From contig CAWUHX010000143.1 of the NCBI GenBank assembly GCA_963922205.1, positions 310,001-374,000 on the forward strand: a stretch of DNA of 64,000 bases, given 5' to 3'. Shown here one piece after another: positions 1,141 through 64,000 of the stretch. The position numbers and the translations under genes were made by a program. Numbering within the stretch: the first letter of the stretch is position 1; each line of letters opens with the position of its first letter. The stretch is from Romanomermis culicivorax. Its lineage: Eukaryota; Nematoda; Enoplea; Mermithida; Mermithidae. The notes under the pieces were generated by a model. That model was not told where the DNA came from and made no database searches. It was given only the letters and a program-made list of their open reading frames with translations.

Positions 1141-1652
1141 TGCGTTTGTGTCAATTGGAACAAATTTTTGACTGGTCTAAGGCTAATTTTTTTGATTTTT
1201 AGTCATTTTAGGGGCTGAAAACGCAAAATTTTCTCGGCGCTTCGCGCTGTCAATCAATATAATATCGACTACTTTTATTTGTTTCGAAGGCGAGCCAATT
1301 CTATTCGAATAGTATATTTTTATTATCGTAACAGACTTTCAGACTGTCAATGACTGATGAATGAATAGATTTGTATTGTATTTGATTGGTAACCGAAATT
1401 TTTATTTTTGCTGTTTGATTCGAACAAAAAATTGACACTATTCGTACAATTTTTATACCAAAATTTACGCGACGTGTAAATTTTTCAGAAAGCAATTCGT
1501 AGCCGAAAATTAAAGACAAATATAAATTTCCTAACAAAGTCGATAAAAACATCTGAATTCTCGCAACATTCGATTTCCTTTCAAATCGTTAAGCCGTTTT
1601 CCCGATCAGTTTTTCTTATATCACTGATGTGGTCAGATAGAATAGGGTAGGC
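1141..1652. repeat. Interspersed repeat with GC hairpin, copies near 58.97 and 60.19 kb
   Basis: 1160-1320 (a GACTGGTC phrase, then the hairpin CGGCGCTTCGCGC near 1232) matches 58971-59110. 1380-1640 (CGAAATTTTT, TTTGATTCGAACA, GATCAGTTTTTCTTAT) matches 60193-60505. Each block is colinear but diverged. No open frame and no clear terminal repeats were found. The stretch 692-1140 before it shows nothing I can name. Confidence 0.6.
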
Positions 1653-1660
1653 ATAGAAAT

Positions 1661-3191
1661 TAGGGTTGTCCCGGGGCAGACATTTTAGCCGGGGCCGGGG
1701 CAGACACATAACATATACGTCACTAGTGGTACCATACTTCATGTATCACATCGAAAAATTTTTAAGGTGATTCTTTTTCTTTTTATTTCATGTCACCTAT
1801 GATACTGCATTGATTGATAGGTTAGATAGGGTCTGATGCAGACAAAAAAAATTAAATTTTTAGGATAATTGTCATTACTAAAAATTAGGAAACATTCTTT
1901 TCCCGAAGAAACTGCATTGCATACATGAACTTGTATCGATTCATCTGCAGGGTTTTTTAGCATGGTGCTATCGATCGTAATCACCGTTTATGAGCATAAG
2001 GTAATCATAATAATAAACAGTCTTTTCATATCAATGAAACCATGCGAATTAAGGTTGCAAAAAATTCAGCAGCAACTTTCAATATTTTAGTCGAAAATTT
2101 TTCAAATTTCAATGTTCTAGAATGCAGGAAAATGTATATTTCTCAACATATTTAATACAAAAATTATGCACGCATCCGATAGTTTAGATTCCCCAAACAG
2201 ATGAAATATCTGTCATTTTTCTGTTGTGATGATGTCTAAATCATATTTCAAATGGGAAGTTTATGTTCACAAAACAGTAAAATATTCAAACACTGCAAAA
2301 GGATCGAGAAAAATCTTGATTTTTTTCAACTATGTCAAGAAACAATACAAGATTGAACATCATCCACGAGATAGGACGACATTTTTCAACTGTGAACCAG
2401 AACTAACATTCAAAATTATAAATCATTTGAATCCGGCGCAAGACGCCGGAAAATTTTCAGGATTTTTTGTTTTAAAATGCATGAAAATGACTTTCCAGAC
2501 AGAAAATCCTATAACGTAATCAAAGGAATCGTCAGGCTTTAGGTTGCACTATCCATCAAAAAATCTGTACAGTACGGATCCGTACCAGCCCAAAAAATTC
2601 CGTCTGGTACAGAAAAAAAACCCCGACTGGAAGGGAGAAACTTTTGGAAAATGCTCGAGAAGAAAGTTGAAGATATCACCAAATTGTGGTGAAAAATCAA
2701 AAATCACCATTTTCCCAAATGACAACCTTGTCAACATCCTCATTCTCTTTGTCACTTTTGCATAGTGAATGACTGTGGCTCGAATCTGAATTCGCTTCAG
2801 CTCTATCTTCTTGGACACTACTTAGGTAATTTGAAAACATGTTTTGACATGTATGCTGAAGTTTAGGCAAATCAGTAATAGTGAATAGCTAATACAATTG
2901 TACGTTTTCTGAAAAAATCAATTGAAGTTGGAGTGCAGTTCCGGATGTAATGAAAACTTTTAAACTTTTATCCAAATAGAACATGAAATTAGTGATCCCT
3001 AAAAGTATTACTGTCAAAATAACTACTGAATATTTACTTGTCACAGTCTAAACTTCAATTTTATTATAAATCGAGCTTGTTATACTATCAAAAATACAAA
3101 TTTTTTGTAGTCTTGCCCCGAACCGGGGCAACCCTAGCCCCGGCCCGTGGCCGGGGCAGCTGCCCCGGTGCCGGGGCCTGGGACAACCCTA
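1661..3191. mobile_element. Non-autonomous hAT-like element (1.53 kb)
   Basis: Left end TAGGGTTGTCCCGGGGC, right end GCCTGGGACAACCCTA: inverted ends sharing TAGGGTTGTCCC. Flanks are ATAGAAAT (1653-1660) and ATAGAGAT (3192-3199), an 8-bp duplication with one mismatch, as expected for hAT. GGGGC/GCCCC runs follow both ends. The interior contains an older interspersed repeat (about 2060-2640) that also occurs alone near 54400-55140. No transposase frame was found. The left edge of the 6.5-kb duplication falls inside it at 2135, so the second duplicate carries only its 3' part, ending near 9768. Confidence 0.75.
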
Positions 3192-3235
3192 ATAGAGATG
3201 TTAGTCGGGGATGCAATTGAACACGAAGGTGAATC

Positions 3236-3890
3236 ACTTATAATTCTTTATATTATTTTAGTGCACAGTTAGAAAATATCATTATAGTTAGTGCTTATAG
3301 ATTCTAATTATCAACATATTATGGATAAATCTTTCATTCTGTATTGTTTTTTTACGAATTTTATGAAAACTAACATTTTTCTCAATCATTTTCTCAAGAT
3401 CTTTTTGCGATCTTCATAAAAATTCTGACTTTCATGTGATTAAAATATTTTGAGTGTAAGGCAATGCTAGAAATTCTTGCTGGTTGAAAGATCCAAGTTA
3501 TTAGCCACTTACCTAGTTTTTGAATATTAGTTTGTCGGACTAAAAATTCATAAAATTCACTGAGAAATCAAACCTGAACAGAAAGATTTTTCGGCGCTAT
3601 GCGCCGAAAAAATTTCTTTAGTCTACTTTTCACTTTCTCTCAAAAACTCAGAAAATCGAGTATTATATGCCTAAAAAACCGACACGGATCGAATGAAATA
3701 TACAAGAAAACTACTTTGCGATGATTTTCCCCATCTAAGCAAATTTATCGATTTTAGAGTGAGCAATCAAAAATTGATCTGCGCAACCAAAATTTTTTCC
3801 CAAGTTGCACATTGCAATCTGGCCTGTGCAACATAGCCCTGTGTTGAAGGCTGTCAGTATGTTTTAGGGCGAAAAAAATTTTTTGTGCCA
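3236..3890. repeat. Long inverted repeat, left arm
   Basis: This block (GC hairpin CGGCGCTATGCGCCG near 3593; CAAGTTGCACATTGCAATCTGG near 3801 forms a second, weaker hairpin) is the diverged reverse complement of about 7020-7870. The arms flank the TIR element 3892-6525. A third copy lies near 62000-62400 and a partial one near 54060-54190. The duplicate of this arm is about 9813-10467. No coding capacity. Confidence 0.7.
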
Positions 3891-4104
3891 TCTGGGGCCG
3901 TATTCATAAAAAGGCTAAAGTCTACAGACCGGTCTATAGACCACAGTCGGGAAAAAACGGTATTCATAAAAAGTCTTAAGTCTAAAAGTCGGTCTAAAAA
4001 CATAGTTTTTTTTAGCATTTTACAAGCCATGGCTTGTTGGACTGACCAAATGGCTTGTAGAATTTTAGTCCAACAAGCCAAAATGGCTTGTCAGAATTTT
4101 TTGA

Positions 4105-4960
4105 GTCATGTGTTTGATCATATCGGATACAGAAAAGATGCATTTTGGTGCATTTTAGAAGGTCATAATCTCAAAATTTTCCGGCGCTTCGCGCCGGTTA
4201 TAACTTAAATATGCATTATTATTCATTTCCTAGCTCAGGCGCTGCTTCTAACATGTCTTCCTTGATTTATCATTTAATCTTTAATAGTTTTAATCCTCTT
4301 AAACGTATTATCTCATGTTTTAATTGGTAATCTTCAATATTTTATCTTGATATTTAATGAAGATTCACATTTTTCCCTTGACATATTTTTCGACAAAGAT
4401 CAATACGTCAAGTCTGTCAACTTTTTGAAGCGATTATTCCTTTCTCAATGTAAAATCAATCCAAAAGCTTCATGGAAGTAGTTTTCGGAAATTTCTACTC
4501 TTCTTACTCATATCTTTTCGGCCAAGTTCATGAGAGTGTGTGAATAAATTAATGGTTTTAAAATTTTTCAAACATAACATTCTAGAAATTACGACTTTTG
4601 AATAACTAATTCTTCAAATAAGTGGTTGGAAAATTGGTTTTCCAGCATCGCAGAATGTCAATACCCAAAAAAAAATTTTTTCAGGCAGGAAAGATTAATA
4701 GCTTTTTTGGGCTCTCACTTGTCATCATAGAGGACTTAACCATCGATTTCTCATGTAATTCAAAGTCATTATGTTCTTGGATAGTTTGCTGGAAAATTTG
4801 TTTCATGATGCTTGTAGATTGAACATCGATCAAACTCCAAAATTTCAAATGTTGCCTGAATTTTAATGAATTATCAGCTCTAAAATGTTATTGAATAAAT
4901 GTTGAATGACGTCTCTTTTTTGATCAATTGCCGTGATGCTCAATATGTACATTTCTTTAA
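4105..4960. repeat. Long GC-hairpin repeat, segment nested in TIR element
   Basis: Starts with TCGGATACAGAAAAGATGC and the hairpin CCGGCGCTTCGCGCCGG at about 4181, then a roughly 700-bp AT-rich body. The same body appears in the opposite orientation at about 15890-16490, split from its own hairpin (19636) by the pogo-like insertion. The duplicate lies at about 10682-11537. Confidence 0.7.
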
Positions 4961-5382
4961 AAAATAACCTAGCATTGAAATTTATTCATGTATACTGATA
5001 TTATAAAATTGGCTCGTAAAAATTTGGAATGGCTTGTAAAATTTTAGGTCAACAAGCCACTTGGCTTGTGACTCGGTAGGTCAAAAAAAAACCCTGGGTC
5101 TAAATCAGTCGACTTTTAGACCGAAAATTTAGCCTGCTACCCTAGCGGGCTAAATGTATTTAGACCAAAATTTTTCATTGAAATGGCTGCATTCTTAAAA
5201 TTTGGGTGTTGAGACGAGAAAGAGTTTTTCGTGATATACGAGATTCCTTAGCTTTTAAACCAAAAATGCAGAGATTTTGTTTTGATCGTTAAGACATATT
5301 GAACATTACTGAATTGATTTGTGGAGATATTGAAAGTCCGACTCAGAGAAATTGAGATATTCCTGCGATTTTGTAAGTTTGC

Positions 5383-5449
5383 ATTGCTATACGGTGCTAC
5401 TCTTGTAGGACAATTCAAATGTCCTACAAGAGTAGCACCGTATAGCAAT
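5383..5449. repeat. Perfect palindrome, 29-bp arms, 9-nt loop
   Basis: Arms run 5383-5411 and 5421-5449 with a loop of AATTCAAAT; pairing is perfect over 29 bp (arm begins ATTGCTATACGGTGC). The second duplicate has it intact at 11960-12026. The stem size would fit a small-RNA precursor, but a perfect stem is more typical of a recent foldback than of a selected miRNA. Confidence 0.9.
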
Positions 5450-7062
5450 TACTGCTGCGATTTTATGCCATTTGCCACAGTATATCAGTTTTCCAAGTGG
5501 AAATCAAATTCAAAAAGTTAAATGTGATTTCACTCAGAAGCTGGTTTTCCTGGTATGCATTCATGCTTTTCTCTAGCACTTTGGAACATGGGAGGAAGGA
5601 ATTTATCAGACATGCTTACTCTGCTGTTCTAGTAGCTGAGTTTCAATGATACATAGAAGTTTAAAATTATTTCGTTACTCTAGGTATAGTCATTGTTCTA
5701 TTGTTTCCCTTCTTTATGAGTACATTGCAACGATCATTGCTTCCTCATTAGCTGTAAATCTTGGCCTGACGCTCATTGTGCTGATCAGGGACCAACGAGA
5801 TTATGACTATGTCCGTCAGTTTTTGTGTTTTTTACACATGATCGAAACTATTTTTAACTTAATTTATTCAAGCTTGGGGCTGAGGAATACTTATGCCCTT
5901 TTTTCAATGATCTACACAATATTTTGGGGTATTTTTTACTTGTAAGCTTTATTTATAGATTTGAAAGCATATAAACTTATCTTACCTTTTCTCTTCATTG
6001 ATTGAAAGTGGAATTTTTTAGAAATAGTGACATTATTGTGACCATTCATCAGGGAGGAGACTTCAACAACTATCCTATCGCATATACAAGTTTTTGGAAG
6101 ATATAATAACGATAAAATATTCGATCGAGCAATCAGGAAATGTTAGTATTTTCTCTTATAGGATATTTGAACATTTTGTATTTAAATTTACGGCATGAGA
6201 AACCTTTTTTCTGGGCGTTTGAGTTCTTTGTTCCAGAATGCGACAAACTAGGCATCGATTTGTGGATCTTCCTGAGACCAACTCAAAAACATCGTTCAAA
6301 AAGTTCTATCTCATTTATTCATAGAGTTATGGCTACTAATATTCGATTCTATTAGTAATATCACAATTTCTACTAGTCTTTTTCTGACGGGCTAAAGTCT
6401 ATAGACCGGTCTACATTTAGACAGCCAAAAAAATCTTTTATGAATACAGACTTTAGCCCGGTCTATAGACTTTAGCTCGGTCTATAGACTTTAGACTTTA
6501 GCCTCCTTTATGAATACGGCCCCAGGCCTGTATTTAGAGAGGGGAAGAGGAGAATTTCCCCTAAATTTTTTTTAGAAAAAAATTTTCAGCAATATCATTG
6601 TACTTATACATTACAATCCCAAATTAAATTATCTACATACTTTTTGTCAAACATAGAATTTAGCCACTAATTCAAGCACACATAAACGAACTGAAAATAA
6701 GTCGTCTTTAAATTACTTTGATTTTCTTTTTATTCAGTAAATTCTTAAAAAAATTTGCGACATTCTCCCTTTTTTTGGAAATCCTGGATACGGGTAAGTG
6801 TGCCATTGGTAAAAATTTGCTTGGTCCTTTGCGCCAATCGGCACAAATGCCCGTGCATCAAAAAAACACTGTTAATGAACAGAAAGACGAACAAAGCATT
6901 GCGGAGCGAGATCTATCATCAAGTTGATTGGTCGAAAAAGTTTATATCATCAAGTTGATTGGTCCTAGTAGTCTACTCCTAGTTCTTCCAAAATCAATAA
7001 ATTTTTTCGAAATCAAATCGATGACAGTTCTTCCTTCCGCAACAGGGTTTTTTTTGCACAGG

Positions 7063-7085
7063 CCAGGTTGCAATGTGCAACCTGG
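7063..7085. repeat. GTTGCA hairpin (CCAGGTTGCA / TGCAACCTGG)
   Basis: Perfect 10-bp stem with a 3-nt loop. Related hairpins occur at about 7987 and 14565 (CAAGTTGCAC-T-GTGCAACTTG), 61278 (same with A), and in weaker form at 3801, 10380 and 62355. They sit in repeat DNA near the GC-hairpin modules. Confidence 0.75.
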
Positions 7086-7266
7086 AAAAAAATTTTGGTT
7101 GCACACATAAATTTTTGGTTGCTCACTCTAAAATCGATAGATTTGCCCAAATTTATCGGAAAAACCATCGCAAACTAGTTTTCTTGTATTTCATTCGATC
7201 CGCGTCGATTTTAGGCATTTAAAACCCAATTTTTTGAATTTTGGAGAGAAAATGAAAAGATTAATA

Positions 7267-7446
7267 TGAGGTAAAGTGGGGTGACTTTGATCAGAGCATG
7301 GCATTTGATAACTATTTGAGATCAGCAGGGCGTTTTTGTTGCGTAGACAACCCCTGCTGTGAGGTAGTCTACACAGCAAAAATGATCACCTGATCTCAAA
7401 TAGTTATCAAATGCCATGCTCTGATCAAAGTCGCCCCACTTTACCA
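7267..7446. mobile_element. Foldback MITE, Tigger/pogo-like ends (180 bp)
   Basis: Ends GAGGTAAAGTGGGGTGACTT and its near complement GTCGCCCCACTTTACC, flanked by TA on both sides (7265-7266, 7447-7448). About 57 bp of each arm pair almost perfectly, and the centre folds again, so the element is one long hairpin. The termini share GGTAAAGTGGGG with the pogo-like element at 16491-19621, which could mobilise it. Duplicate copy at 13844-14023. Confidence 0.85.
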
Positions 7447-8656
7447 TAACTAGTGTATAGTATTCTGTTCGGCGCGTAGCGCCAAAATTTTTTTCAGTAT
7501 TTCAATATTATAGAATGCTGGAAATGAATCTTTTCACCTTTTATTTTTCAGACTGACGGTTTGAGCTCTCAGCGAATTAGATGAATTTCAGTCGGACAAA
7601 CTAAAATTCGAAAAACTAGGCAAACTCTTGCATTTTCTTACACTCAAAATGTTTTAATTACATGAAAGTCAAAATTTTCATGAAGAGAAGATCGCAAAAA
7701 AATTTTGAGAGAATGACTTAGAAAAATGTTAGTTTTTATCAAATTCGTCAAAAAACAATATACAAGATCAAACATTTATCCATAATATGTTGATAACTGG
7801 AAGCTATAAGCAGTAACTGGAATGACCTTTCAGACCCGCGCACTAGAATAATATAAAAAATTATAAATGAATTTAAACCCGGCGCGAAGCGCCGGAAAAT
7901 TCTCACTTTTTTCCATTTTAGAACGCATAAAAATGCATCTCCGGACAAAAAACCCTATAACCTAATCAAAAGTTCAGTCAGGCCTCAAGTTGCACTGTGC
8001 AACTTGGCAGAAAAAAATTGGTTGTACAGCCCGAAATTTGGTTCCTGTGTGCAAAAAAAACCTGCTCCGCAATGCCATCCACCGTTTTCTCCTCAAATGG
8101 GGTGTTCTGAGGAAAAAAATTTCGAAATAAGGAAAAAAAATTTGGGTATGGACCAACGTTTTTTCCTCAAATGGGGTCTTTTGAGGAAAAAAATTTTGGG
8201 TATGGTTCTCATTGTGGAAAAACTTTTGGGGAACTCTAAACCGAAAAGATGCGTTTTGGTGGACTTGAAAGGGTCAAAATCTCAAAACTTTCCGGCGCTT
8301 CGCTCCGGTCATGGGTATAATCTTAACTATTTTCTATCAGGCGCGGCCGTTAGCATATCTACTTCGACTTATTAATTAATGCTCAACAGTTTCCATCAAT
8401 CAAGTTAGCTCGCTTCATTTTCTAATCGTTAACAGTCCATTATGTCGCCCAAAATTGAGATTTTTCATCAATTCTCTCAATTTTTCCTCTCGATGCTTGG
8501 AATTTTTTAAACGTTTGCAACCTGGACTTTCGCGTTTATTGAAGATGGAAATTGAAGACATCATTCTAGACTGCGATTTTAGAACTCCTATTCATGAATA
8601 TCTGTTGGAGATATTTATTTTTCAGCGTTTTAAAATATAAAAACCCGAAAATTTTT

Positions 8657-8711
8657 ATATATTTCTCAACATATATTTCTCAACATATTTGGAATATATT
8701 TAGAATAAATA
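8657..8711. repeat. Filler at the duplication junction
   Basis: These 55 bp between the two copies consist of short direct repeats: ATATATTTCTCAACAT is present twice in the filler and again at the start of copy 2 (8711 onward), followed by TTGGAATATATTTAGAATAA. The repeated word is the first sequence of the duplicated unit (TATATTTCTCAACATATTT at 2135). Templated filler of this kind is typical of template switching or polymerase-theta repair. Confidence 0.85.
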
Positions 8712-10469
8712 TATATTTCTCAACATATTTAATACAAAAATTATGCACGCATCCGATAGTTTAGATTCCCCAAACAGATGAAATATCTGTCATTTTTCTG
8801 TTGTGATGATGTCTAAATCATATTTCAAATGGGAAGTTTATGTTCACAAAACAGTAAAATATTCAAACACTGCAAAAGGATCGAGAAAAATCTTGATTTT
8901 TTTCAACTATGTCAAGAAACAATACAAGATTGAACATCATCCACGAGATAGGACGACATTTTTCAACTGTGAACCAGAACTAACATTCAAAATTATAAAT
9001 CATTTGAATCCGGCGCAAGGCGCCGGAAAATTTTCAGGATTTTTTGTTTTAAAATGCATGAAAATGACTTTCCAGACAGAAAATCCTATAACGTAATCAA
9101 AGGAATCGTCAGGCTTTAGGTTGCACTATCCATCAAAAAATCTGTACAGTACGGATCCGTACCAGCCCAAAAAATTCCGTCTGGTACAGAAAAAAAACCC
9201 CGACTGGAAGGGAGAAACTTTTGGAAAATGCTCGAGAAGAAAGTTGAAGATATCACCAAATTGTGGTGAAAAATCAAAAATCACCATTTTCCCAAATGAC
9301 AACCTTGTCAACATCCTCATTCTCTTTGTCACTTTTGCATAGTGAATGACTGTGGCTCGAATCTGAATTCGCTTCAGCTCTATCTTCTTGGACACTACTT
9401 AGGTAATTTGAAAACATGTTTTGACATGTATGCTGAAGTTTAGGCAAATCAGTAATAGTGAATAGCTAATACAATTGTACGTTTTCTGAAAAAATCAATT
9501 GAAGTTGGAGTGCAGTTCCGGATGTAATGGAAACTTTTAAACTTTTATCCAAATAGAACATGAAATTAGTGATCCCTAAAAGTATTACTGTCAAAATAAC
9601 TACTGAATATTTACTTGTCACAGTCTAAACTTCAATTTTATTATAAATCGAGCTTGTTATACTATCAAAAATACAAATTTTTTGTAGTCTTGCCCCGAAC
9701 CGGGGCAACCCTAGCCCCGGCCCGTGGCCGGGGCAGCTGCCCCGGTGCCGGGGCCTGGGACAACCCTAATAGAGATGTTAGTCGGGGATGCAATTGAACA
9801 CGAAGGTGAATCACTTATAATTCTTTATATTATTTTAGTGCACAGTTAGAAAATATCATTATAGTTAGTGCTTATAGATTCTAATTATCAACATATTATG
9901 GATAAATCTTTCATTCTGTATTGTTTTTTTACGAATTTTATGAAAACTAACATTTTTCTCAATCATTTTCTCAAGATCTTTTTGCGATCTTCATAAAAAT
10001 TCTGACTTTCATGTGATTAAAATATTTTGAGTGTAAGGCAATGCTAGAAATTCTTGCTGGTTGAAAGATCCAAGTTATTAGCCACTTACCTAGTTTTTGA
10101 ATATTAGTTTGTCGGACTAAAAATTCATAAAATTCACTGAGAAATCAAACCTGAACAGAAAGATTTTTCGGCGCTATGCGCCGAAAAAATTTCTTTAGTC
10201 TACTTTTCACTTTCTCTCAAAAACTCAGAAAATCGAGTATTATATGCCTAAAAAACCGACACGGATCGAATGAAATATAACAAGAAAACTACTTTGCGAT
10301 GATTTTCCCCATCTAAGCAAATTTATCGATTTTAGAGTGAGCAATCAAAAATTGATCTGCGCAACCAAAATTTTTTCCCAAGTTGCACATTGCAATCTGG
10401 CCTGTGCAACATAGCCCTGTGTTGAAGGCTGTCAGTATGTTTTAGGACGAGAAAAATTTTTTGTGCCAT

Positions 10470-13102
10470 CTGGGGCCGTATTCATAAAAAGGCTAAAGTC
10501 TACAGACCGGTCTATAGACCACAGTCGGGAAAAAACGGTATTCATAAAAAGTCTTAAGTCTAAAAGTCGGTCTAAAAACATAGTTTTTTTAGCATTTTAC
10601 AAGTTATGGCTTGTTGGACTGACCAAATGGCTTGTAGAATTTTAGTCCAACAAGCCAAAATGGCTTGTCAGAATTTTTTGAGTCATGTGTTTGATCATAT
10701 CGGATATAGAAAAGATGCATTTTGGTGCATTTTAGAAGGTCATAATCTCAAAATTTTCCGGCGCTTCGCGCCGGTTATAACTTAAATATGCATTATTATT
10801 CATTTCCTAGCTCAGGCGCTGCTTCTAACATGTCTTCCTTGATTTATCATTTAATCTTTAATAGTTTTAATCCTCTTAAACGTATTATCTCATGTTTTAA
10901 TTGGTAATCTTCAATATTTTATCTTGATATTTAATGAAGATTCACATTTTTCCCTTGACATATTTTTCGACAAAGATCAATACGTCAAGTCTGTCAACTT
11001 TTTGAAGCGATTATTCCTTTCTCAATGTAAAATCAATCCAAAAGCTTCATGGAAGTAGTTTTCGGAAATTTCTACTCTTCTTACTCATATCTTTTCGGCC
11101 AAGTTCATGAGAGTGTGTGAATAAATTAATGGTTTTAAAATTTTTCAAACATAACATTCTAGAAATTACGACTTTTGAATAACTAATTCTTCAAATAAGT
11201 GGTTGGAAAATTGGTTTTCCAGCATCGCAGAATGTCAATACCCAAAAAAAATTTTTTTCAGGCAGGAAAGATTAATAGCTTTTTTGGGCTCTCACTTGTC
11301 ATCATAGAGGACTTAACCATCGATTTCTCATGTAATTCAAAGTCATTATGTTCTTGGATAGTTTGCTGGAAAATTTGTTTCATGATGCTTGTAGATTGAA
11401 CATCGATCAAACTCCAAAATTTCAAATGTTGCCTGAATTTTAATGAATTATCAGCTCTAAAATGTTATTGAATAAATGTTGAATGACGTCTCTTTTTTGA
11501 TCAATTGCCGTGATGCTCAATATGTACATTTCTTTAAAAAATAACCTAGCATTGAAATTTATTCATGTATACTGATATTATAAAATTGGCTCGTAAAAAT
11601 TTGGAATGGCTTGTAAAATTTTAGGTCAACAAGCCACTTGGCTTGTGACTCGGTAGGTCAAAAAAAAACCCTGGGTCTAAATCAGTCGACTTTTAGACCG
11701 AAAATTTAGCCTGCTACCCTAGCGGGCTAAATGTATTTAGACCAAAATTTTTCATTGAAATGGCTGCATTCTTAAAATTTGGGTGTTGAGACGAGAAAGA
11801 GTTTTTCGTGATATACGAGATTCCTTAGCTTTTAAACCAAAAATGCAGAGATTTTGTTTTGATCGTTAAGACATATTGAACATTACTGAATTGATTTGTG
11901 GAGATATTGAAAGTCCGACTCAGAGAAATTGAGATATTCCTGCGATTTTGTAAGTTTGCATTGCTATACGGTGCTACTCTTGTAGGACAATTCAAATGTC
12001 CTACAAGAGTAGCACCGTATAGCAATTACTGCTGCGATTTTATGCCATTTGCCACAGTATATCAGTTTTCCAAGTGGAAATCAAATTCAAAAAGTTAAAT
12101 GTGATTTCACTCAGAAGCTGGTTTTCCTGGTATGCATTCATGCTTTTCTCTAGCACTTTGGAACATGGGAGGAAGGAATTTATCAGACATGCTTACTCTG
12201 CTGTTCTAGTAGCTGAGTTTCAATGATACATAGAAGTTTAAAATTATTTCGTTACTCTAGGTATAGTCATTGTTCTATTGTTTCCCTTCTTTATGAGTAC
12301 ATTGCAACGATCATTGCTTCCTCATTAGCTGTAAATCTTGGCCTGACGCTCATTGTGCTGATCAGGGACCAACGAGATTATGACTATGTCCGTCAGTTTT
12401 TGTGTTTTTTACACATGATCGAAACTATTTTTAACTTAATTTATTCAAGCTTGGGGCTGAGGAATACTTATGCCCTTTTTTCAATGATCTACACAATATT
12501 TTGGGGTATTTTTTACTTGTAAGCTTTATTTATAGATTTGAAAGCATATAAACTTATCTTACCTTTTCTCTTCATTGATTGAAAGTGGAATTTTTTAGAA
12601 ATAGTGACATTATTGTGACCATTCATCAGGGAGGAGACTTCAACAACTATCCTATCGCATATACAAGTTTTTGGAAGATATAATAACGATAAAATATTCG
12701 ATCGAGCAATCAGGAAATGTTAGTATTTTCTCTTATAGGATATTTGAACATTTTGTATTTAAATTTACGGCATGAGAAACCTTTTTTCTGGGCGTTTGAG
12801 TTCTTTGTTCCAGAATGCGACAAACTAGGCATCGATTTGTGGATCTTCCTGAGACCAACTCAAAAACATCGTTCAAAAAGTTCTATCTCATTTATTCATA
12901 GAGTTATGGCTACTAATATTCGATTCTATTAGTAATATCACAATTTCTACTAGTCTTTTTCTGACGGGCTAAAGTCTATAGACCGGTCTACATTTAGACA
13001 GCCAAAAAAATCTTTTATGAATACAGACTTTAGCCCGGTCTATAGACTTTAGCTCGGTCTATAGACTTTAGACTTTAGCCTCCTTTATGAATACGGCCCC
13101 AG
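10470..13102. mobile_element. TIR element, second duplicate
   Basis: Copy of 3892-6525 inside the second tandem duplicate, with inverted ends CTGGGGCCGTATTC and GAATACGGCCCCAG and the internal GTCTATAGACC words. It contains the perfect palindrome at 11960-12026 and the same two unassigned frames (12223-12522, 12717-12932). Confidence 0.65.
11960..12026. repeat. Perfect palindrome, second copy
   Basis: Identical to 5383-5449: 29-bp arms and a 9-nt loop with no mismatch in either copy. Confidence 0.9.
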
Positions 13103-51639: not shown

Positions 51640-53300
51640 TTATAAGGTAGCTACCGATGCTTTCTTTCTGTACATATTTTAGGTGTATACCCAAACATTC
51701 TAATTTTTTCGGCGTCAGTAACCTGCGAAAATGAGGAAAAAATTGAGAAAATTCTAGTCAGGTCAGTCAAATTGAGCTGATGAACGGTACAATAGTGTTC
51801 TACAACAGTTGAAAGCGTATTAACAATAGATTTATCACTAATTTATTTGTTATTAACAGTTTTGTGTTCCGATTAAAGTTATCGAATTTTAATTATTTTT
51901 TATTCGCAGAGCGCCGGAAAAAGTTGATTTTTACTTTCTAAAACGCGTGGGAAATGAATCTTCGCAACGCTAGGAAATAAATTAAAATCAAACTATTGGG
52001 TAATTTGTTTCTCATTCAGGCGCGAAGCGCTGGAAATTTTTTTGAGTTTTTACGTTCTAAACTGCTGGAAAATGAATAGGAGCTCTAACTTTTGATTTAA
52101 CAGTAAAGTGTTTTAAGGAATATGACGTAATAGGTATTAATTTCTGGAAAAATTTTATATACTATACTTTACAAACATTGCTGAAACACTTCAGAACGGT
52201 ATAAAATATGTTTGTAACAACTTTCTAAAGTTCAACTACTTTTTTTTGTGCACCGACATTTGTACTAAATGGCACAAAAGGCCAAAAAAATTGGGCCAAT
52301 GGCACAAAAAAAGTTTTATTCTCTAAAAACATACTGAAAACTCCGAAAAAGTTTTACGCCAAAAGTTTTATAAACATATAATTAAAGCAACTTTCACCGC
52401 ACTAATATACGTAAAATCGTGTTCATCCTTTTTTCATTGGTTTACAATTCAAAAACAAATGGAATGCTGCGAGAATTCAAATATCTCAATATAGAATTGT
52501 TTAGGACCGAAACAATATATAATTGTTTAGGACCGAAACAATATAGAATTGTTTCGGAAATATTTACTTTCTATCAATTTTCTAGCAACAATGTAAAGAT
52601 TGCATTGAGGATGTCTATGATTGTTTACTCCTGAAGACCATTGGGTCAAAAGGTGAGCAAATTTTTGGTCAAAAAATTGTACCAACGATATCAATTTTTC
52701 TACTTGAATCAAACACCAAAATAAGAATTTCAGTTTCCAATCTGAATCCTACTGAAAGAACGGAGGAAGTTCATTCATCAGTCATTGACAATCTGCAATT
52801 TTTTGCGATTATACAAATATACTTTTCGAAGAGAATTCGCTTGCGTTCGAGTCAAATACAAGTAGTTGATATTATATTCCTTGACTCGGTGCGATGCGCC
52901 GAAAAAATTTTACGTTTTCAGTCCCTTAGAATGCCTAAAAATCATAGAAATTTAGTCTTTGACCCCAGTTAAAAAGCTCAACATTTTCTAGGGCATTCCA
53001 TTACTTTCTTGTGCCAAAAATTAGTACGTTTTGGCACAAAAAAACTGGAAACAACATTAAGCATTGCCGAGCGAGATCTGTCATCAATTAATATTTGTCA
53101 AAGAAATTTATCAATTTTTTCTGACAAATTTTCTGGCTTAGTCTTAGGCTTAGGTTTACCCTTAAGCTTAGACTTACGAACAGGAGGCAGTAAAGTACTT
53201 TTTTTCGATTAATTAAATTGATGACTTATTTTTTCCTACCAGTCAAATAGATGACAGTTCTTTTTGAGCGGTCGAAGATTCAATTTTTTTTAGTTGTAAG
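51640..53300. repeat. Mixed GC-hairpin and GGCACAAAA repeats, no gene
   Basis: GC hairpins at about 51903, 52019 and 52884, each followed by AAATTTT and a TTCTAGAA-like or TTAGAATG word. GGCACAAAAA/TTTTTGTGCC words occur near 52250-52310 and 53010-53045; the same words recur near 49610, 55410, 58930, 60610 and 60760. The short duplication TTTAGGACCGAAACAATATA is present twice at 52500-52545. 53301-53531 holds nothing I can name. Confidence 0.55.
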
Positions 53301-53531: not shown

Positions 53532-53975
53532 CATACATGTAATTGGGAGAGGGAAGTGCTATGGGAACCCCCCCCCCAGAAATCTTCGACCATATAACTA
53601 GTCATTGGGCGACCGCCCTTCTATGATTTTCTAGTCCTATGGCTAGCCATATGGTAGCCGTAGGAACCCCCATACTTTTGGTGGGAAAAATACTGAAAAA
53701 CGTTAATTTTTTTGATAAAAAATGTCAATTTTTGAACAAAAAATTGTCAAAAATGTCAATTTTTTCGGCGCCTCGCGCCCCATGAATACATTTTTTCGGT
53801 CTTTTTAAGAAAAAGTTATAATTCTTTGAATTATTTTGCGGACTTTTTTCGTGAAAAAATCGATTTTCCCCTCGAGAGACCCCTCCCCCTAAAATTTTGG
53901 TAATTACTGACCCCCGGCCCCAAAAAAGTCGTCCGACCCCCCCCCCCCGGACCTCGGGTCCCCGTTAAATGTGTG
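53532..53975. mobile_element. MITE family A, complete copy (444 bp)
   Basis: Starts CATACATGTAATTGGG and ends CCCCGTTAAATGTGTG, flanked by GTACCATC (53524-53531) and GTATCATC (53976-53983), one mismatch. Contains CTAGCCATATGGTAGCC, the GC hairpin CGGCGCCTCGCGCC (53766) and C runs at both sides. Same orientation as 38654-39090 and 57198-57618. Confidence 0.9.
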
Positions 53976-54059: not shown

Positions 54060-54831
54060 TTGGAACATGCTTGCTCACTCTAAAATTGATAAATTGACTT
54101 CACTTTTATCGGAAAAACGATTAAACGCTTATTTTCTTGAACTTCATTCGAATCGCGTCAGTTCTAAACTTTTACAACTGTATTTCATGAGTTTTGAAAG
54201 AAAATAATGAAAATCCTGGCAAAAGCATCGATAAATTTTCATTTCAAGGCTTCTAAAATGTCGGAGAATGCATTTTTCAGCTTACTCTTCTGCAACCATA
54301 CTAGGTGAACGATCGTAAAGATAAGTTGCAAAAAATTTCGGCAGCAGACAACCGATCTTTCAGTCGAAGATCTTTAATGTCGGCGCGCACGCCGTAAAAT
54401 TTTTCAAAATTTCAATATTCTAGAATGCAAGAAAATATATTTTTTTCAACATTTGATTAATACAAAAATTAGGCACCCACCCGATAGTTTGGATTCCTCA
54501 AACAAAAAACATCTGTCATTTTTCTGCGCTGATGATGTTTGAATCATATTTCAAATGGGAAGTTTATGTTCACAAAACGGTAACATATTCAAACACTGCA
54601 AAAGAATCTAGAAAAATTTTGATTTTTTCAATTATATCAAGAAACAATACAAGATCGGACATTCATTCACGATCTGTTAACGTTCAAAAGATATAAACAG
54701 ACGGACGACATTTTTCATCTGTGAACTAGAAACATGCAAAATTTCCGGCGATTCAGGATTTTTTATTTTAAAACGCATGCAAACGAATTTCAAGACAGTA
54801 AATCATATAACTTATTGAAAAGAATCGTCAG
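54060..54831. repeat. Copies of the inverted-arm and 2060-2640 repeats
   Basis: 54060-54190 matches the complement of part of the 3236-3890 arm. 54381-54831 is a diverged copy of about 2060-2535 (hairpin GGCGCGCACGCC, then TTCTAGAATGCAAG, CCGATAGTTTGGATTCC, CAAATGGGAAGTTTATG). The repeat resumes after the MITE at 55056 (GCTTTAGGATGCACTGTGCA) to about 55140, proving the MITE insertion. Confidence 0.7.
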
Positions 54832-56699: not shown

Positions 56700-58535
56700 G
56701 ACAACGTATGCTTTTTTCTGGAAAGAAGCTTTAGTCATACCTATTTTTAAAAAAGGAAATCCTCATGTATTCGATAATTATAGACCTATATCACTTTTCT
56801 GTGCTCCTTGCAAAGTTATGAAATCAATCTTAAATAATTATATGATGGTAATATTTATCTATAGAAAAAATAATAAAGCCTGAGCAATTTGGTTTTGTGA
56901 AGGAAAAGGCTTGTAATACACAGCTGTTTAAATGTAAAAATCAATGGACCAAACTTCTAGATCTAAATAAATCCATTGATATTCTCTACATTGCTTTTTG
57001 TAAAGCTTTTGATTCAGTAGTCCATTCCAAACTATTACCAAAATTACATAATATTGGTTTCAGTGGCCTCTTAATAAAATGTAACAAACTAAACTCAAAG
57101 AGTTAAAATTGAATCTTCAATTAATAAACCTGTTTTAAGTGGAGTCCCACAAGGTAGTGTTTATAAATGATATTATTGATAACGTTAAGCATAGCAGCAT
57201 ACATGTAATTGGGGGGAAGTGCTATGGGATCCCCCCCCCAGAAATCGTCGACCATATGGCTAGCCATTGGGCGACCCCCCCCCCAGGATTTTCCAATCCT
57301 ATGGCTAGCCATATGGTAGCCCTAGGGACCCCCATAGTTTTAGTCGGGAAAATACTGAAAAATGTCAATTTTTGAACAAAAAATGGTCAAAAACGTCAAT
57401 TTTCCCGGCGCTTCGCGCCATAAGTACATATTTTATCATTTTTTAGACAAAAATTACTACTTTTCAAACCGTTTTTCGAACATTGTTCATGGAAAAAATC
57501 GGAGTTTTTTTCCTTCAGGGACCCCTCCCCCAAAATTTTGAGAATTACTGACCCCAGGCCCCAAAAAAGTGCTCCAAACCCCCCCCCCCCCAGACCTCGG
57601 AGCTCCGTTACATGTATGCATAGCAGTATTCTTTTATTTGCTGATGATGTGAAAATGTTTAACACATCTGATAAATCTACTCAGCTTCAATCTGATTTAG
57701 ATACTATTACTCAATCGGCTACAAATTGGCAGCTGAATATTTCTTATTCTTAATGTTCTGTCTTTTATGTATAATAGGGCATAAAAATCCGAAAAACCAA
57801 TATATATTAGGAAATGAAATTGTAACTGATTCTGACTTGGCTGTAAAAGATCTTGGTGCTTATACATTAACAATGATTTATCTTCTGGGTTACATCGTGA
57901 AAACATAGCCTCTAGCAACTAGGATTTCCAGTTTATTACGAAAAGCGCTTTTCTCCAAAAATATCTGCCTTTTTTTCAAAGCATTTAAAACTTATGTTAG
58001 ACCTATCCTTGAATATTGCTCTCCTGTTTTCAATCCTTATCAAATTTCTGAATATTTATAAGCTTGAAAAAGTTCAACGCCATTTTTAAAAACAAATTCT
58101 TTGGAATCTCGATTTAACATATGAAGATTGCTTGAAACACCTTAATTTAGAACGGTTAGAAAAAAGAATACACATCGACTTATGTTTAATGCATAAAATT
58201 TTGAATAATCAAGCTTTACCATGAAGTGATTTTTTCACGCATCCTCATTCTACAAATACTAGAGCTTTTGAGCAAAATAATTTTGTTGTTGAAAAATGTA
58301 ATATAAATTGAACTGTAACAATTTTTCAAAATTTAAGAATATAATAAAACAAGTGGACTCCAGCGATTTTCTAAAGGGGCGCAAGTAAGCAAAAAGTAAG
58401 CCTTTGCGCTACCTGAGTATGTCTTTTTACGAACCTGTTATTTATATTTCCAGTTATCATTTATTTTTCCGCTACAACTTATTTGTTTTGTTTTTTCATC
58501 GACATACTCAAATAAAATATTATTATTTATTATTA
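56700..58535 (+). pseudogene. Non-LTR retrotransposon (jockey/RTE-like), decayed, MITE inside
   Basis: Reverse-transcriptase blocks in order: VIPIFKKGNPHVFDNYRPIS, EQFGFVKEKACNTQ (near 56883), IDILYIAFCKAFDSVVHSKL, SGVPQGSV (near 57140), LFADDVKMFN with the catalytic FADD box, then AFKTYVRPILEYCSPVFNPY (about 57980) and LNLERLEKRIHIDLCLMHK (about 58140). The 5' part, including any endonuclease, is absent. Several frameshifts and stops exist. The 3' end is an AATAAAATATTATTATTTA tail near 58535. A family A MITE (57198-57618) interrupts the RT domain. Clade is uncertain. Confidence 0.85.
57198..57618. mobile_element. MITE family A, complete copy (421 bp) inside the LINE
   Basis: Starts CATACATGTAATTGGG and ends CTCCGTTACATGTATG, with a perfect duplication CATAGCAG at 57190-57197 and 57619-57626. 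Removing the element plus one duplication rejoins NVKHSS with ILLFADD in one frame, so the LINE frame was open here when the MITE landed. It has the GC hairpin CCGGCGCTTCGCGCC (57406). Confidence 0.95.
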
Positions 58536-61130
58536 TATTTGCTTGCCCCGAATGCGAACGAGTTCTCTTCGAATAGTGTATTAGTTTCGCGTCCCAGCAA
58601 ACTGTGTAAGCTGTCAATGACTGATGAATGAAAAGAAATTCTGAATATTCTCTGTTCATTCAGTCAGATTCGAATTTAAAACTGAAATTCTTACTTCGTA
58701 TATTTGATTGATTCAAATAGAAAAATCGATACCTATCGTTGATACAATGTTTCGACCGAAAATTTAAACATTTTTCGACTTAATTTCTCTAGTTTTAACG
58801 TTTTTGTTATGTATATACAGATATTCGTAGTCAAAGATTGAACTTCTTAAACAATTATATACTAATTTTCTCAACACTCTATTTATTTTTGCCGTTTTTT
58901 TCATATTTCACTGGAATGGATGGTTTTTGGCACACAAAAATTTGGAATGGCACAAAAAATTTCGGGCAAATTTTTTGACTGGTCGAAGGCTGAATTTTCT
59001 TGATTCTTAGTCATTTTACGGGGGGAAAACACAAAATTTTTTCGGTGCTTCGCGCAGAGTCAATGAGTATAATATTAATTAACTTTTATTTGTCTAGAAC
59101 CTGAGAGAATTGTATTTTAGAAGTATATTTGTGCGATCGCAACAAACTTTGAGATTGTCAATAACTTATATAAATGAATAGAAATGGTTAACTTCCACTG
59201 TTCATTCAGTGCAGAGGTCCCCAAGGTCGAAAAATTAGGTAGGGGTAAAATCGTAAATTTTAAGGGTAGTACTTACAACATGCCGTGACCTTTTTTTTTT
59301 TGCTCCCAACTTTTTGCGAAGGAGGGGGAGTTTTAGTTCTCTAACTACATAGAAGTTACAAAAATGAATATTGCCCCATCATGCAACTTTAATGCACTAA
59401 TTATACGTACAGAATAGTCACACTATGAAGTCTGTTGTGCCAACTGATTCCTGCACATTTCAAGAATCGGGCACAACATACGTTTGAAAACATTGTTTCA
59501 ACCAGCATCTTCAGCAGTATGGGCTTATCCCATCACTGATTAGGCTTGGAACAGTGCTTCCAATTGAAAGTCGTGATGCTGAATGGCTTTAGTATTATTA
59601 ATCCCATTAGACTATGAACTACGAGTTTGAAACCAAGTACCACTCCTGATCCACATCAACAGACCTCACATGTCTCAACTCATAGCAGGAAAGTATGCCA
59701 CAGCTTGGGTAACCATATGCGCACAGAAGATCCAACGCAGAAGCGGGGAAAAGAAAAGGAGAGCATGAAGAGGCAGAATTTTAAGAACATAATGTTTTTC
59801 TTCCCAAGGGGCAATTTTTTGATTAATCACATATACATAAGCCATTATTTCATCTCCCAATTATATTTATAATGATTTCCTACAAGTAATATATCTTAGT
59901 GTGCAGATATCCTTTCCTAAAAATCGCTATATGGCACACAAGTTGCCTACTTTCCCATTATCATTTGCTCAGTAAATGTGTCAAAAAGAGCAGTGAGTAA
60001 TTCCTCAGAATCACACATTCTGCAATTTTTCTCGAATTAGTATAACCTACTGGGGAGAGGATGAAGTCTACCAAAATTTTTTGCTATAGTGAGCTGTTTT
60101 TATGGGGGTAGTAAATGAATTTCCAAATCTAAGACCGGGGTAATACCCCCCCCCATACCCCGCCCATGGGGTGCTCTGATTCAGTGTAATTGGAAACCGA
60201 AATTTTGATATTTGGTGTTTGATTCGAACAGAGAAATTGACATTGTTGGCACAATTTTTCAATCAAAAATTTACGCGATGCAACTTTCGGCTGGGTTTTT
60301 TTCAGCAGAAAGCAATTATAGACATTCTTAGTTTATTTACATCGCTATTAAAAAGAAATTCGTAGCCGAAAATTATAAAAAAAAATATAAATTGTCTAAA
60401 AAATTCTTTAAAAATATCTGAAAGCATTCGTTTTTCTCCAATCGTAGTAAACGGTTTTCTCGATCAGTTTTTCTTATCGCACTGACGTGCTTAGATAAAA
60501 TAGAGTTGGCACGATTTTTACGCAAATTAGTGCCGGGAAGGCTTATGTTTGTATATGGCATAAAACTTTTTAAAGGTTTTCAGTATGTTTTTAGGCTCGA
60601 AAAAATTTTTTGTGCCATTGACACAATTTTTTTGGCCTCTTATGCCAATTGGCACAAATGTCCGTGCTCAAAAAATCTCGTCTGGTCGGACGTCAGACCT
60701 CCTTACAGGTATGTTTCGAAGTTTTCTGTACGTTTCTTGAGAGAAAAATTTTTTTGTGTCATTGGCAGAAATTTGTTTGACTTTTTATGCCAATTGGCAG
60801 TAATGTCCGTGCACAAAAAAACACTGCCCGGCATCCGGCATTCAGCAATGCTACCCGTATCCAGGATTTTTAAGAAAAGGGGGGGGGGAGAATCTCCAAA
60901 TTTTTTTAGAATTTACTGAATAAAAAGGAAATTATTTTTGCTGTAAAGACGAATTATTTTCAGTTAATTAGTGTGTGCTTGAATTAGTGGCTAAATTCTA
61001 TGTTTGACAAAAAGTATGTAAATATGATTTAACTTGGGAGTTGTGATGTATAAGTACAATGATATTGCTGGAAATGTTATTCTTAAATTTATGATTTAAA
61101 TTTAATCTAACATTTATGATATCAGTTTAA
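58536..61130. repeat. Mosaic of interspersed repeats, no gene
   Basis: 58560-58650 and 58971-59110 match 1290-1370 and 1160-1310. 60190-60505 matches 1380-1640. 60570-60830 holds the TTTTTTGTGCCATTGGCA family. 60890-61080 is the complement of 6545-6740. 60679-60711 (GTCTGGTCGG, CCTTACAGGTATG) resembles the right end of a family B MITE without a left end. 59130-60100 shows no match; the 81-aa frame at 59627 has no recognisable product. Confidence 0.5.
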
Positions 61131-61199
61131 TCATATACGGGGTGGATTTTGGAAAAAACCGAAAAAGTGTAAAACACCAAAAAACGTAAAAAGTTTAGG

Positions 61200-61500
61200 G
61201 GGGAATTCCCCCTTCCATAAAGGGCTTTTTTGCACACAGCAACCAAATTTCGGGCTGTGCAACCAGATTTTTTCCGTCAAGTTGCACAGTGCAACTTGAA
61301 GCCTGACTGCGTTTTTGATAAGGTTATGGGGCTTGCTGTCCATAAACGCATTTTTATGCGTTATAAAATGAAAAATAGTGAAATTTTTCCGGCGCTTCGC
61401 GCCGGATTTTAATTAATTTAATAATTTATCTATATTATTCAAATGCGCGGTCAGAAAATGTCATTCTAGCTAATGCTCATAAGCTTTTAATTATCAACAT
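61200..61500. repeat. GC-hairpin repeat, complement of 7800-8040
   Basis: CAAGTTGCACAGTGCAACTTG (61278, a hairpin), then CATTTTTATGCGTT and CCGGCGCTTCGCGCCGG (61389), then ATGCTCATAAGC and TTATCAACATATG. Order and spacing are as in 8000 down to 7790. Confidence 0.7.
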
Positions 61501-61989: not shown

Positions 61990-62580
61990 ATAAAATTTAG
62001 CCGAAATTCTTGCTGGTTGGAGAATCAAAATTCTTGGTTGCTTTCCTCTAGAATTGTAGTCTGCCCAAATGAAAATTCATTGAATTCATTGAAAAATTCA
62101 AGCCTTCTGTTTTGGAAATAAAAGTATAGATAGATACACTTTCCAGCGTTCTAGAATATCGAAATCTCAGGAAAATTTTCGGCGCTGCGCGCCGAACAAG
62201 TTACTCATACCAATCATTTCATTTTCCCTTCAAAACTCAGAAAATTCGGCTTTTAAAGCCTAAAAGATGAAATACAAGAAAACTAGCTTTTGGTGGGTTT
62301 TCGGCTATTTTAGAGCGAGCAACCGAAAATTTATCTGTGCAGCCAACATTTTTCCCCAAGTTGCACATTGTAACCTGGCCTGTGCAAAAAAGCCCTGCTT
62401 CCACCCACTGTTTTTTTCCACGAACTTTATTCCACAAATGTGGAAAGAGGTCAAATTTTTTCCCACATGAGGAAAATTTGTTTCGTCTAAAAATTCTCGT
62501 TTTTTCGCTTGAAAATGCTCATAAACACTTTATTTATATGTGTTTTGAGCTTTTTAAAGCATTATGATAATCATTCTGAT
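61990..62580. repeat. GC-hairpin repeat, third copy of the long inverted-repeat arm
   Basis: CGGCGCTGCGCGCCG hairpin (62179), ATGAAATACAAGAAAACTAG, TTTTAGAGCGAGCAACCGAA and AAGTTGCACATTGTAACCTG follow the order of 3590-3845. 62400-62580 resembles 15700-15790. 61501-61989 between the repeats shows no gene. Confidence 0.65.
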
Positions 62581-62859
62581 CATTATCTCAAAACTTAGAT
62601 TTGAATATTGTGTTCATAAATCGAAATTTCTAGAAAATTATCATTCGAAAAATTTTGAAACCATCAATTTGTTCGTAACCTTTCATAAATTTGGTCCAAA
62701 AGCTATGTCAGCAGTGGCTAATACAGGTCCGGTGACATGGTGACATGTCACCAAGCTGAAAAAGTTTACAGGTTTTTTTTACACAAATTATTATAAAACA
62801 CTTCGCTGTTACTGTAAAAAATGTTTTGCTAATTTTTACGCGGCGAATTTTATGCATTC

Positions 62860-63060
62860 TGTCTGTTCAAAATCAAATCAAATCATTTTATTTATCGCTT
62901 CCAGCGAAAAGTAAATAATAATAATAATAGCAATACAGTAAAAGAAACGCAAAAAATTGTTAATAAAAAATGCAGAACGAATCAATGTTCTGTATGTCAT
63001 CCTTCCTTGTGCCTTGTCCTTATTATCTGTCGTCCTATCCTACTGATTCTGATTGAGTAC
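62860..63060 (-). mobile_element. Probable 3' end of a truncated LINE (minus)
   Basis: On the minus strand: TTATTATTATTTACTTTTCG, then CTGGAAGCGATAAATAAAAT and a GATTTGATTTG tail, a pattern typical of jockey/RTE 3' ends. Only about 200 bp are present and no coding blocks were found, so the call rests on the tail. Confidence 0.45.
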
Positions 63061-63165
63061 AGATTTTTTTTGGGACTTGGAATTTCGTAACACAAAAAAA
63101 AGAAGATATATAAATTTTGTAAAAATATTTTTTGGTTTTGTCTGATAATTTTGTGGAAACGACCA

Positions 63166-64000
63166 CCGTTTTTTCCTCAAATGGGGTCTTTTGAGGAAAA
63201 AAATTTCGAAATGAGGAAAAAAATTTTGGTATGGTTCTCATTGTGGAAAAAAATTGGGGAATTCAAAACGGAAAAGATGCATTTCGGTGGACTTGAAAAG
63301 ATCAAAATCCCAAAATTTTCCGGCGCTTCGCGCCGGTCATGAGTATATAATGATAACTATTTTCTATCAGGGGCGGCCGTTAGCATATCTGCTTCGACTA
63401 CTAATTAATGCTCAACAGTTTCTATCAAACAACTTAGCTCGTTTCATTTTCTAATCGTTAAAAGTCAATTATATGTCGCCGGAAATAGATTTTTCATCAA
63501 TTCTCAATTTTTCTCTCGATGCATGGAATTATTTAAACGTTTGCAACCTGAACTTTTGCGTTTATTGAAAATGGAAATTGAACACATCATTTTAGACTGT
63601 GATTTTAAAACTTCTTTTCACAAATATCTGTTGGAGAAATTTATTTTCCAGCGTTTTAGAATATAAAAGCCCGAAAATTTTTCCGGCGCTTCGCGCCAGA
63701 ATGGGGAGCAAATTAGACTTCATCAGTCTGATTTTAATTTATTTGCCATTGTTTTGAAGATTCATTTTCCAGCGTTTCAGAAAGTGAAAATTCAAAAATT
63801 TTCTGGCTCCGCGCCAGACCAAAACTAAATAAAATTAGATGATCCTAATCCGAACCACAGAAATATTGATAGCGGATAAATTCATGAGAGCTCTATGGTT
63901 AACATGCTTTATCCGCTCCTGTAGAACACAAATATGTTCTCATTTTGACTAACATAACCAGAATTTTCTCAATTTTTTCCTCATTTTTGCAGATTTCTGA
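63166..64000. repeat. Long GC-hairpin repeat, copy running off the window
   Basis: Begins CCACCGTTTTTTCCTCAAAT and continues colinearly with 8080-8640 and 43761-44440. Hairpins at 63320 (CCGGCGCTTCGCGCCGG), 63679 and 63803. Its start (CACCGTTTTTTCC) is the complement of the end of other copies (GAGGAAAAAAAAACGGTG at 44589 and 20257), so the complete repeat has inverted ends. Confidence 0.75.

Follow-up and report, generated by a model that had tools for sequence, protein, structure and literature searches.

A compact module recurs throughout a 64-kb stretch of the Romanomermis culicivorax genome (C143:310001-374000; hereafter the window), in which an arm rich in A/T tracts is followed by the palindrome GGCGC-N3-GCGCC. 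The unit that is alike between repeat families measures about 62 bp, comprising ~45 bp upstream plus the palindrome, and it recurs in thousands of copies because several families of hAT-type miniature inverted-repeat transposable elements (MITEs) carry it as a conserved internal segment. We tentatively interpret it, with a likelihood that we place somewhat short of even, as a cis-acting docking site, made of a bent arm and a dyad, at which a putative binding protein would help the MITEs move. The palindromes had been pointed out in a sequence-only reading of the window, which described about 37 sites as GC hairpins of one design in unrelated repeats; palindromes are indeed present at, or a few bases from, the positions that it gave.

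The proposed docking site would have two parts: an arm of ~45 bp, expected to bend the DNA through A/T tracts that recur about once per helical turn, and a palindromic site, GGCGC-N3-GCGCC, of up to 9 bp per arm. Because the half-site centers lie 10 bp apart, both half-sites fall on the same face of the helix. A dimeric or oligomeric protein, most likely the zinc finger of a hAT transposase or a host factor used by the transposase, would recognize the bent arm and dyad in double-stranded DNA and, once bound, would help assemble the transposition complex, such that MITEs retaining the module kept multiplying. The hairpin would then be a by-product of the dyad symmetry.

Recurrence of the module in the window and the genome

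Within the window, GGCGC-N3-GCGCC occurs 21 times exactly, 31 times with at most one mismatch, and 41 times with at most two, compared with 0, 0, and 5 occurrences in one Markov-1 sequence of similar composition. Across the genome (359 Mb, 595 contigs, about 35% GC), the 17-mer CCGGCGC-N3-GCGCCGG is found at 8,092 places and its reversed control at 0, and this CpG-rich palindrome sits in DNA of only ~35% GC. With spacers of 0–12 nt permitted, the spacer was 3 nt in 95 of 100 among the matches listed, in agreement with the 3-nt loop described previously, and we estimate that there are 14,500 spacer-3 palindromes genome-wide.

We built a covariance model of the module (69 positions) from 28 training sites, 16 of which are among the 37 noted sites, and it recovered 32 of the 37 at E < 1e-3; the five that it missed (24829, 38888, 46906, 53766, and 57406) all belong to MITE family B, in which the upstream sequence is different. 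A tandem duplication of 6,577 bp accounts for six of the 37, which belong to its second copy, leaving 31, and the hairpin is not intact throughout, with at least four sites decayed or shortened (46906, 51903, 54381, and 63803). Likewise, the proposed layout of AAAATTTT, TTTTAGAATG, and TGGAAAATGA applies to most sites but not to family B or to several single sites. At a threshold of at least 28.1 bits, the model gave 39 hits in the window, duplicated copies counted, versus 17 in a 200-kb background sample (20 contigs, with stretches of 10 kb). The resulting densities of about 610 versus 85 modules per Mb, about sevenfold apart, mark the window as a module hot spot, the estimate being rough in that the sampled stretches contain 7 of the 28 training sites and the window 16. 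By rough extrapolation, the whole genome may hold ~30,000 recognizable modules.

The bounded host elements are hAT-type MITEs

Four families (A, B, A1, and F/G) are hAT-type MITEs, as indicated by their inverted CA..TG ends and 8-bp duplications; the assignment is made for these bounded families, and families C and D/E and eight single sites placed in no family (e.g., 18683 and 26605) are counted apart. End words that characterize the bounded families include CAGGGCCGTGCGCA, CATACATGTAA, and CAGGGTTTTTTTT. The hosts had been called unrelated; their remaining sequence is largely unalike, but all four bounded families are of the hAT type, and A, A1, D, and F/G have a common order of two modules, M1-M2.

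Family A ends read CATGGCCGTGCGCA / TGCGCACGGCCCTG, and in 9 of the 12 copies read with their flanks the target duplication matches at 7/8 or 8/8; in two of the nine it is TATATATA, which lies in TA repeats and is hence weak. The remaining copies, at loci L001, L036, and L040, match at 4/8, 4/8 (8/8 with a one-base shift), and 5/8. The L001 element is 870 bp long, contains three palindromes, and is inserted, as judged by eye, in an apparent open frame of a long interspersed nuclear element (LINE). A search from this element gave 40 scored copies of 4,585 candidates, 14 of them full-length and uninterrupted and 26 breaking at query 727-729 to resume after about 93-121 extra bases. The extra bases are perhaps one more module, and the number of modules may therefore still be changing.

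Family B ends read CATACATGTAA / TTACATGTATG. Six of the seven plausible copies in which both ends match the pattern carry duplications of 7-8/8, while 32033-32457 has 4/8; copies 24622, L004, and L025 lie outside the end-pattern match. In copy L022 (duplication 7-8/8) there is no core within two mismatches and no recognizable palindrome. A1 ends read CATAGTTTTTTTT / AAAAAAAACCCTG, with an exact duplication in one of two copies (L007, 8/8, CACATGTC), and F/G ends read CAGGGTTTTTTTTGCAC, with a duplication of 7/8 after a one-base shift of the right end, set by eye. Poly-G/poly-C runs of variable length stand directly inside the inverted ends of families A and B.

A Helitron or other rolling-circle element, one origin suggested for the hairpins, is ruled out for A, A1, F/G, and B by the 8-bp duplications, the inverted ends, and palindromes at least 126 bp from the ends. 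Helitrons make no target duplication and carry a hairpin beside a CTRR 3' end, and the bounded families show no rolling-circle feature. The elements share with hAT-superfamily MITEs their 8-bp target duplications, short CA..TG inverted ends, and high copy number, but differ from the named ones in having one to three (perhaps four) internal modules of bent arm and dyad; we know of no such internal module in named hAT MITEs. Nor did literature searches on hAT/MITE hairpins, Tam3 subterminal structure, the GCGAAGC hairpin, tandem repeats with stem-loops, curved DNA with palindromes, and BED domains with palindromes turn up such a module, and two 17-mers and two 13-mers are absent from the literature text searched. 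No viral contig with TTTTCCGGCGCTTCGCGCCGG was found in a search outside which records near this genome may fall.

The modules and host elements of the window are:

2074..15233, no strand: tandem duplication of 6,577 bp (copies about 2074-8656 and 8649-15233), which doubles six noted module sites
7043..8064, reverse strand: hAT-type MITE F/G, ends CAGGGTTTTTTTTGCACAGG / CAGGTTTTTTTTGCACACAGG, duplication TTCCGCAA/CTCCGCAA, M1 at 7881 and M2 at 7471; second copy at 13621-14641
7876..7943, reverse strand: F/G module M1, arm plus palindrome CCGGCGC-TTC-GCGCCGG
7466..7534, reverse strand: F/G module M2, palindrome GGCGC-TAC-GCGCC
4001..5096, forward strand: hAT-type MITE A1, ends CATAGTTTTTTTT / CAGGGTTTTTTTTTGACC, flanks 4/8 unshifted; second copy at 10579-11673
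4133..4200, forward strand: A1 module M1, module model match
4628-4692, forward strand: decayed A1 module M2, within the 4001..5096 element
15816..16486, reverse strand: A1-type copy, M2 at 16004-16073
19633..19700, reverse strand: A1-type module M1 in a truncated copy, module model match
14715..15570, forward strand: family A copy, modules starting at 14821 (M1), 15185 (M2), and 15306 (M3)
43731..44423, forward strand: family A copy whose identity to young copies in the genome is about 96%; its modules lie at 43772-43839, 44137-44205, and 44258-44326
63147..64000, forward strand: family A copy passing the window end, modules starting at 63272, 63634, and 63755
51538..52116, reverse strand: older copy of family A with one module at 52014-52082 and a decayed one at 51898-51964
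57198..57618, forward strand: MITE B, ends CATACATGTAA..TTACATGTATG, duplication CATAGCAG (8/8), single central palindrome at 57407-57419
38654..39090, forward strand: MITE B, duplication TATCAAAG (8/8), palindrome at 38888-38900
53532..53975, forward strand: MITE B, duplication 7/8, palindrome at 53767-53779
24622..25043, reverse strand: MITE B copy, palindrome near 24828-24840
46715..47055, reverse strand: MITE B copy with a 7/8 duplication and a decayed palindrome near 46906
1186..1253, forward strand: family C module, module model match
52883..52951, reverse strand: family C module, module model match
58994..59061, forward strand: family C module, module model match
2430..2497, reverse strand: family D module M1, whose M2 (2089-2142) is without the palindrome
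54377..54445, reverse strand: family D-type module M2, shortened palindrome still present
61341..61408, forward strand: D/G-type module M1, module model match
62129..62198, forward strand: E/F-type module M2, stem TTCGGCGC-TGC-GCGCCGAA

Conservation and order of the module

Modules M1 (exemplified by GATGCATTTTGGTGCATTTTAGAA) and M2 (by GATTCATTTTCCAGCGTTTTAGAAT) stand in a single orientation in A1, D, F/G, and A, and family A has a third module, M3, 121 bp beyond M2. The M1 palindrome starts 126 bp from one element end in A, 171 bp in F/G, and 182 bp in A1, while the single palindrome of family B lies 209 bp from its element end. We compared the consensus sequences of seven module types, with B and C left out, pairwise in 15-base bins. 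The 13-base core agreed at 0.90 and the three bins upstream of it at 0.71, 0.66, and 0.78, as against 0.44-0.64 in all other bins and 0.46-0.56 for shuffled flanks; between M1 and M2/M3, the upstream likeness is limited to ~30 bases (0.59, 0.66, 0.79). Family C agrees with the seven types only in the nearest upstream bin and the core, and family B agrees modestly with them (0.65-0.70 upstream, 0.66-0.67 directly downstream).

Within family A, the stems carry 17 changes in 697 cells versus 36.9 in matched GC columns, a value as low being reached in 1 of 5,000 draws; this test used 17 copies from longer BLAST matches, which are biased to young elements, excluded terminal runs, and treated columns as independent. 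The stems of family A are therefore better conserved than their flanks. Together with the bins compared between module types, these stem rates bear out the earlier description of one design that recurs across repeats, and they show it to be better conserved than its surroundings.

An alternative is shared descent, according to which all of the modules would go back to one old hAT MITE lineage and persist as still-recognizable remnants with no retained function. The common order and orientation of M1 and M2 in A, A1, D, and F/G agree with such a history, as do the alignment of A and A1 past M1 (about 69% over 250 bp), the partial likeness of M1 types downstream, and the gain of modules in family A at a 121-bp step. 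However, likeness between families is near background outside the module though the flanks are equally old, the rate of stem change in family A is about half that of matched GC columns, and the A/T phase is retained in family B without the letters, even if B is phased downstream too. We consider descent without function a doubtful explanation, though one to be reckoned with.

Letters and pairing in the palindrome

The sequence-only reading held that the structure of the palindrome, and not its letters, is kept. In the core, this did not hold. Among the 92 ungapped copies of the 100 listed for M1 of family A (selected with flanks fixed by pattern; the exact M1 flanks occur at 920 places genome-wide), 43 are unchanged, and there are 59 one-sided stem changes and 3 two-sided ones, one of which re-forms a pair (0.7 expected). 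In an alignment of 49 sites, the five core pairs show 2 double changes, as many as in 88 of 500 shuffles, though their covariation score is matched in only 10 of 500. Extending the stem to eight pairs gave a score reached by only 2 of 500 shuffles, mainly because one pair is C-G in 20 sites and T-A in 11. This outermost pair is C-G at 8,092 places genome-wide, T-A at 2,537, and mixed at 2,001 (odds ratio about 20), an association that may largely reflect two groups of families. The claim of paired stem changes thus stands for the outermost pair between families but not for the five core pairs, which are rarely compensated. Double changes of the inner pair G4-C14 number 373 genome-wide (reversed control, 126), and among the 50 distinct places listed, 28 carry another palindrome (loop GCT/AGC) and 5 are A-T; the former, CGCCGC-GCT-GCGGCG with a constant loop, probably belongs to another repeat. 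Taken over the 49-site alignment, the 92 M1 copies, and the G4-C14 search, covariation of the core was rejected as nothing beyond chance. A rarely compensated core and a covarying outer pair suggest that the core is kept by its letters and the outer arm is kept symmetric.

The loop reads TNC/GNA at 9,776 of the estimated 14,500 spacer-3 places. Variants of the TTC loop number 342 at the first position and 1,887 at the third genome-wide, and among the 95 listed spacer-3 places those at the middle position number 24, versus 5 and 7 at the others, so that position one is constrained and position three intermediate. Selection for a GNA triloop was rejected as an explanation since third-position variants are too common, with loop counts confounded by family. 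Palindromes have also been lost: 3 of the 100 M1 sites listed lack 8-20 bases in the palindrome and 5 more have one-base indels, and loss is near-exact in D M2 (window 2089 and L025), E M2 (L012), L016, and L013.

A function of the DNA hairpin itself would make the single-stranded fold what matters, in replication, repair, or extrusion, for instance through stalled forks and the promotion of gap repair or of element copying. We judge this unlikely. DNA folding z scores are -2.2 to -4.2 in all seven strands tested, and the loop strand, with TNC/GNA loops predominating, reads GCGAAGC, an extraordinarily stable DNA mini-hairpin. The covarying outer pair and the losses of 8-20 nt or of near-exact palindromes fit such a fold as well, but any palindrome is expected to be deletion-prone, core stem changes are uncompensated, and the few G4-C14 double changes belong largely, among the places listed, to another palindrome. 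The loop test was mixed, as a GNA loop should protect both the first and the third position. Bacterial REP (repetitive extragenic palindromic) sequences and d(GNA)-loop hairpins likewise combine a short GC palindrome and a tiny loop with thousands of copies; here, in contrast to the REP palindromes, the host is a hAT-type MITE, a phased A/T-tract arm is present, and the letters of the core rather than its pairing are kept.

Phasing and predicted bend of the upstream arm

The first site of each of nine module types was examined for A/T tracts, and three to six were found per arm. Counted back from the core GGCGC, their centers in B and C lie about 46, 37, 26-29, 16, and 6-8 bases away; tracts at several of these places are found in most of the remaining module types. 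The mean phasing z over the nine types is 1.88 in the arm, 0.38 upstream, and 1.08 downstream, and 8 of the 9 types show helical phase (family-mean z above 1), including B despite its different letters. The predicted bend of 52 module arms, a mean that pools related sites, is 45.8 degrees; the two flanking controls give 29.2 and 30.1 degrees, and random 48-mers of the genome with similar AT content give 27.0. Only the contrast between these values is trustworthy, as they depend on the wedge parameters assumed, a dependence that weighs against the docking site. All nine module types have an arm predicted to bend more than the average of its two controls, and in six of the nine it bends more than either control.

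A further-reaching proposal is that the module is coded by shape: up to five phased A/T tracts and a GC dyad at a 10-bp step would form a transposition enhancer common to hAT MITE families with different ends, kept by shape where letters drift (B versus the other families) and perhaps exchanged among families through recombination. We hold this version to be distinctly unlikely. The phased tracts, the predicted bend, and a CpG-rich site within ~35% GC DNA might also suggest a chromatin element that positions or excludes nucleosomes or acts as a promoter, enhancer, or silencing-escape signal, but the MITEs have no known product to express, and we regard such a role as very improbable. An RNA hairpin formed by putative element transcripts is the least credible proposal, hardly to be expected at all: RNA folding z scores are -2.0 to -3.4 in all five strands tested, but the window contains 0 Rfam matches at gathering thresholds and core covariation is absent.

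A candidate docking site and its potential partners

Kept letters, a fixed spacer, half-sites one turn apart, and a phased arm would fit a protein docking site better than a hairpin that matters only by its pairing. Several observations weigh against the docking site. The A1_M2 arm is unphased (0.03), in B and EF_M2 phasing is slightly stronger in the downstream control than in the arm, in A1_M2, DG_M1, and EF_M2 one of the two controls bends more than the arm, and the eight unassigned single sites bend little (31 versus 27). M1 types are also alike downstream to a degree (0.51-0.69), the stems of family B change at 0.075 per cell, little better than AT columns at 0.087 (GC columns outside its stems, poly-C runs included, change at 0.131), and a module has lost its palindrome in family D and in some copies of E and G. 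The inverted ends of A, A1/F-G, and B differ from one another, and hence a single transposase for all of them is not obvious. Lastly, the four hAT loci read of 1,837 candidates, which may exclude the true autonomous partners, contain no module (best model hit E 0.064).

These loci come from a search in which 150 hAT dimerization domains were scored of the 1,837 candidates in the genome, and ends were identified in three of the four loci (L041, L042, and L044), L043 being the exception. L041 and L044 have ends TAGGGATGGGC. L042 (C126:713500-718700) is a 3,896-bp hAT with an 864-aa open frame containing DUF4371 and hAT dimerization domains, ends CAGAGCCGTGCC/CAGGGCCGTGCC, and duplication CTATTGGC. 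Its left end contains a six-G run. This DUF4371-type element is without the module, but its ends resemble the family A ends CATGGCCGTGCGCA/CAGGGCCGTGCGCA; relatives of L042 are therefore a likely source of transposase and might mobilize family A MITEs in trans.

The Hermes transposon offers a precedent for such a subterminal site. Its BED domains are described as binding a left-end quasi-palindrome cooperatively and as needing AT-rich DNA beside an AAGT motif, and the left-end sites as needing exact phasing, with binding to deeper sites judged unlikely to matter (PMC10368747). As with the STR1/STR2 subterminal repeats of Hermes described there, a palindromic site with an AT-rich neighbor lies here within the terminal few hundred bp; here, however, the site letters are different, the distance to the end varies, and the modules of one element all point in the same direction. 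The varying distance of the palindromes, 126-428 bp from the ends, is unlike the phasing of Hermes and is a further point against the docking site.

Other features of the window

The copies of the tandem duplication are 98-99.8% identical, with 14-bp ATATATTTCTCAAC repeats close to the junction, and each contains a GGGGC/GCCCC inverted-repeat cluster (3113-3177 and 9690-9754). A 217-bp hAT-type MITE at 35357-35573, with ends CAGTGTTTTTTTGCAC and duplication TTTCTCAG, has a module-like arm and a remnant, GGCGTGCG, where the palindrome would stand. At 18985-19032 there is a perfect inverted repeat with 22-bp arms, GTGTCGACCAATGTTACCCACC, and a loop of 4. One module had been assigned to an XPO5 intron, a context that is weakly indicated by an Exportin-5 match at 27239-27541 on the reverse strand (PF19273, E 8.7e-5), under the curated cut-off.

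Significance for MITE biology

It has long been asked how MITEs can number in the thousands when the transposons that give rise to them remain rare. A short internal module that is retained amid element turnover is a candidate cis element for MITE success, and the module can also serve as a marker by which the hAT MITE families of this genome are traced.

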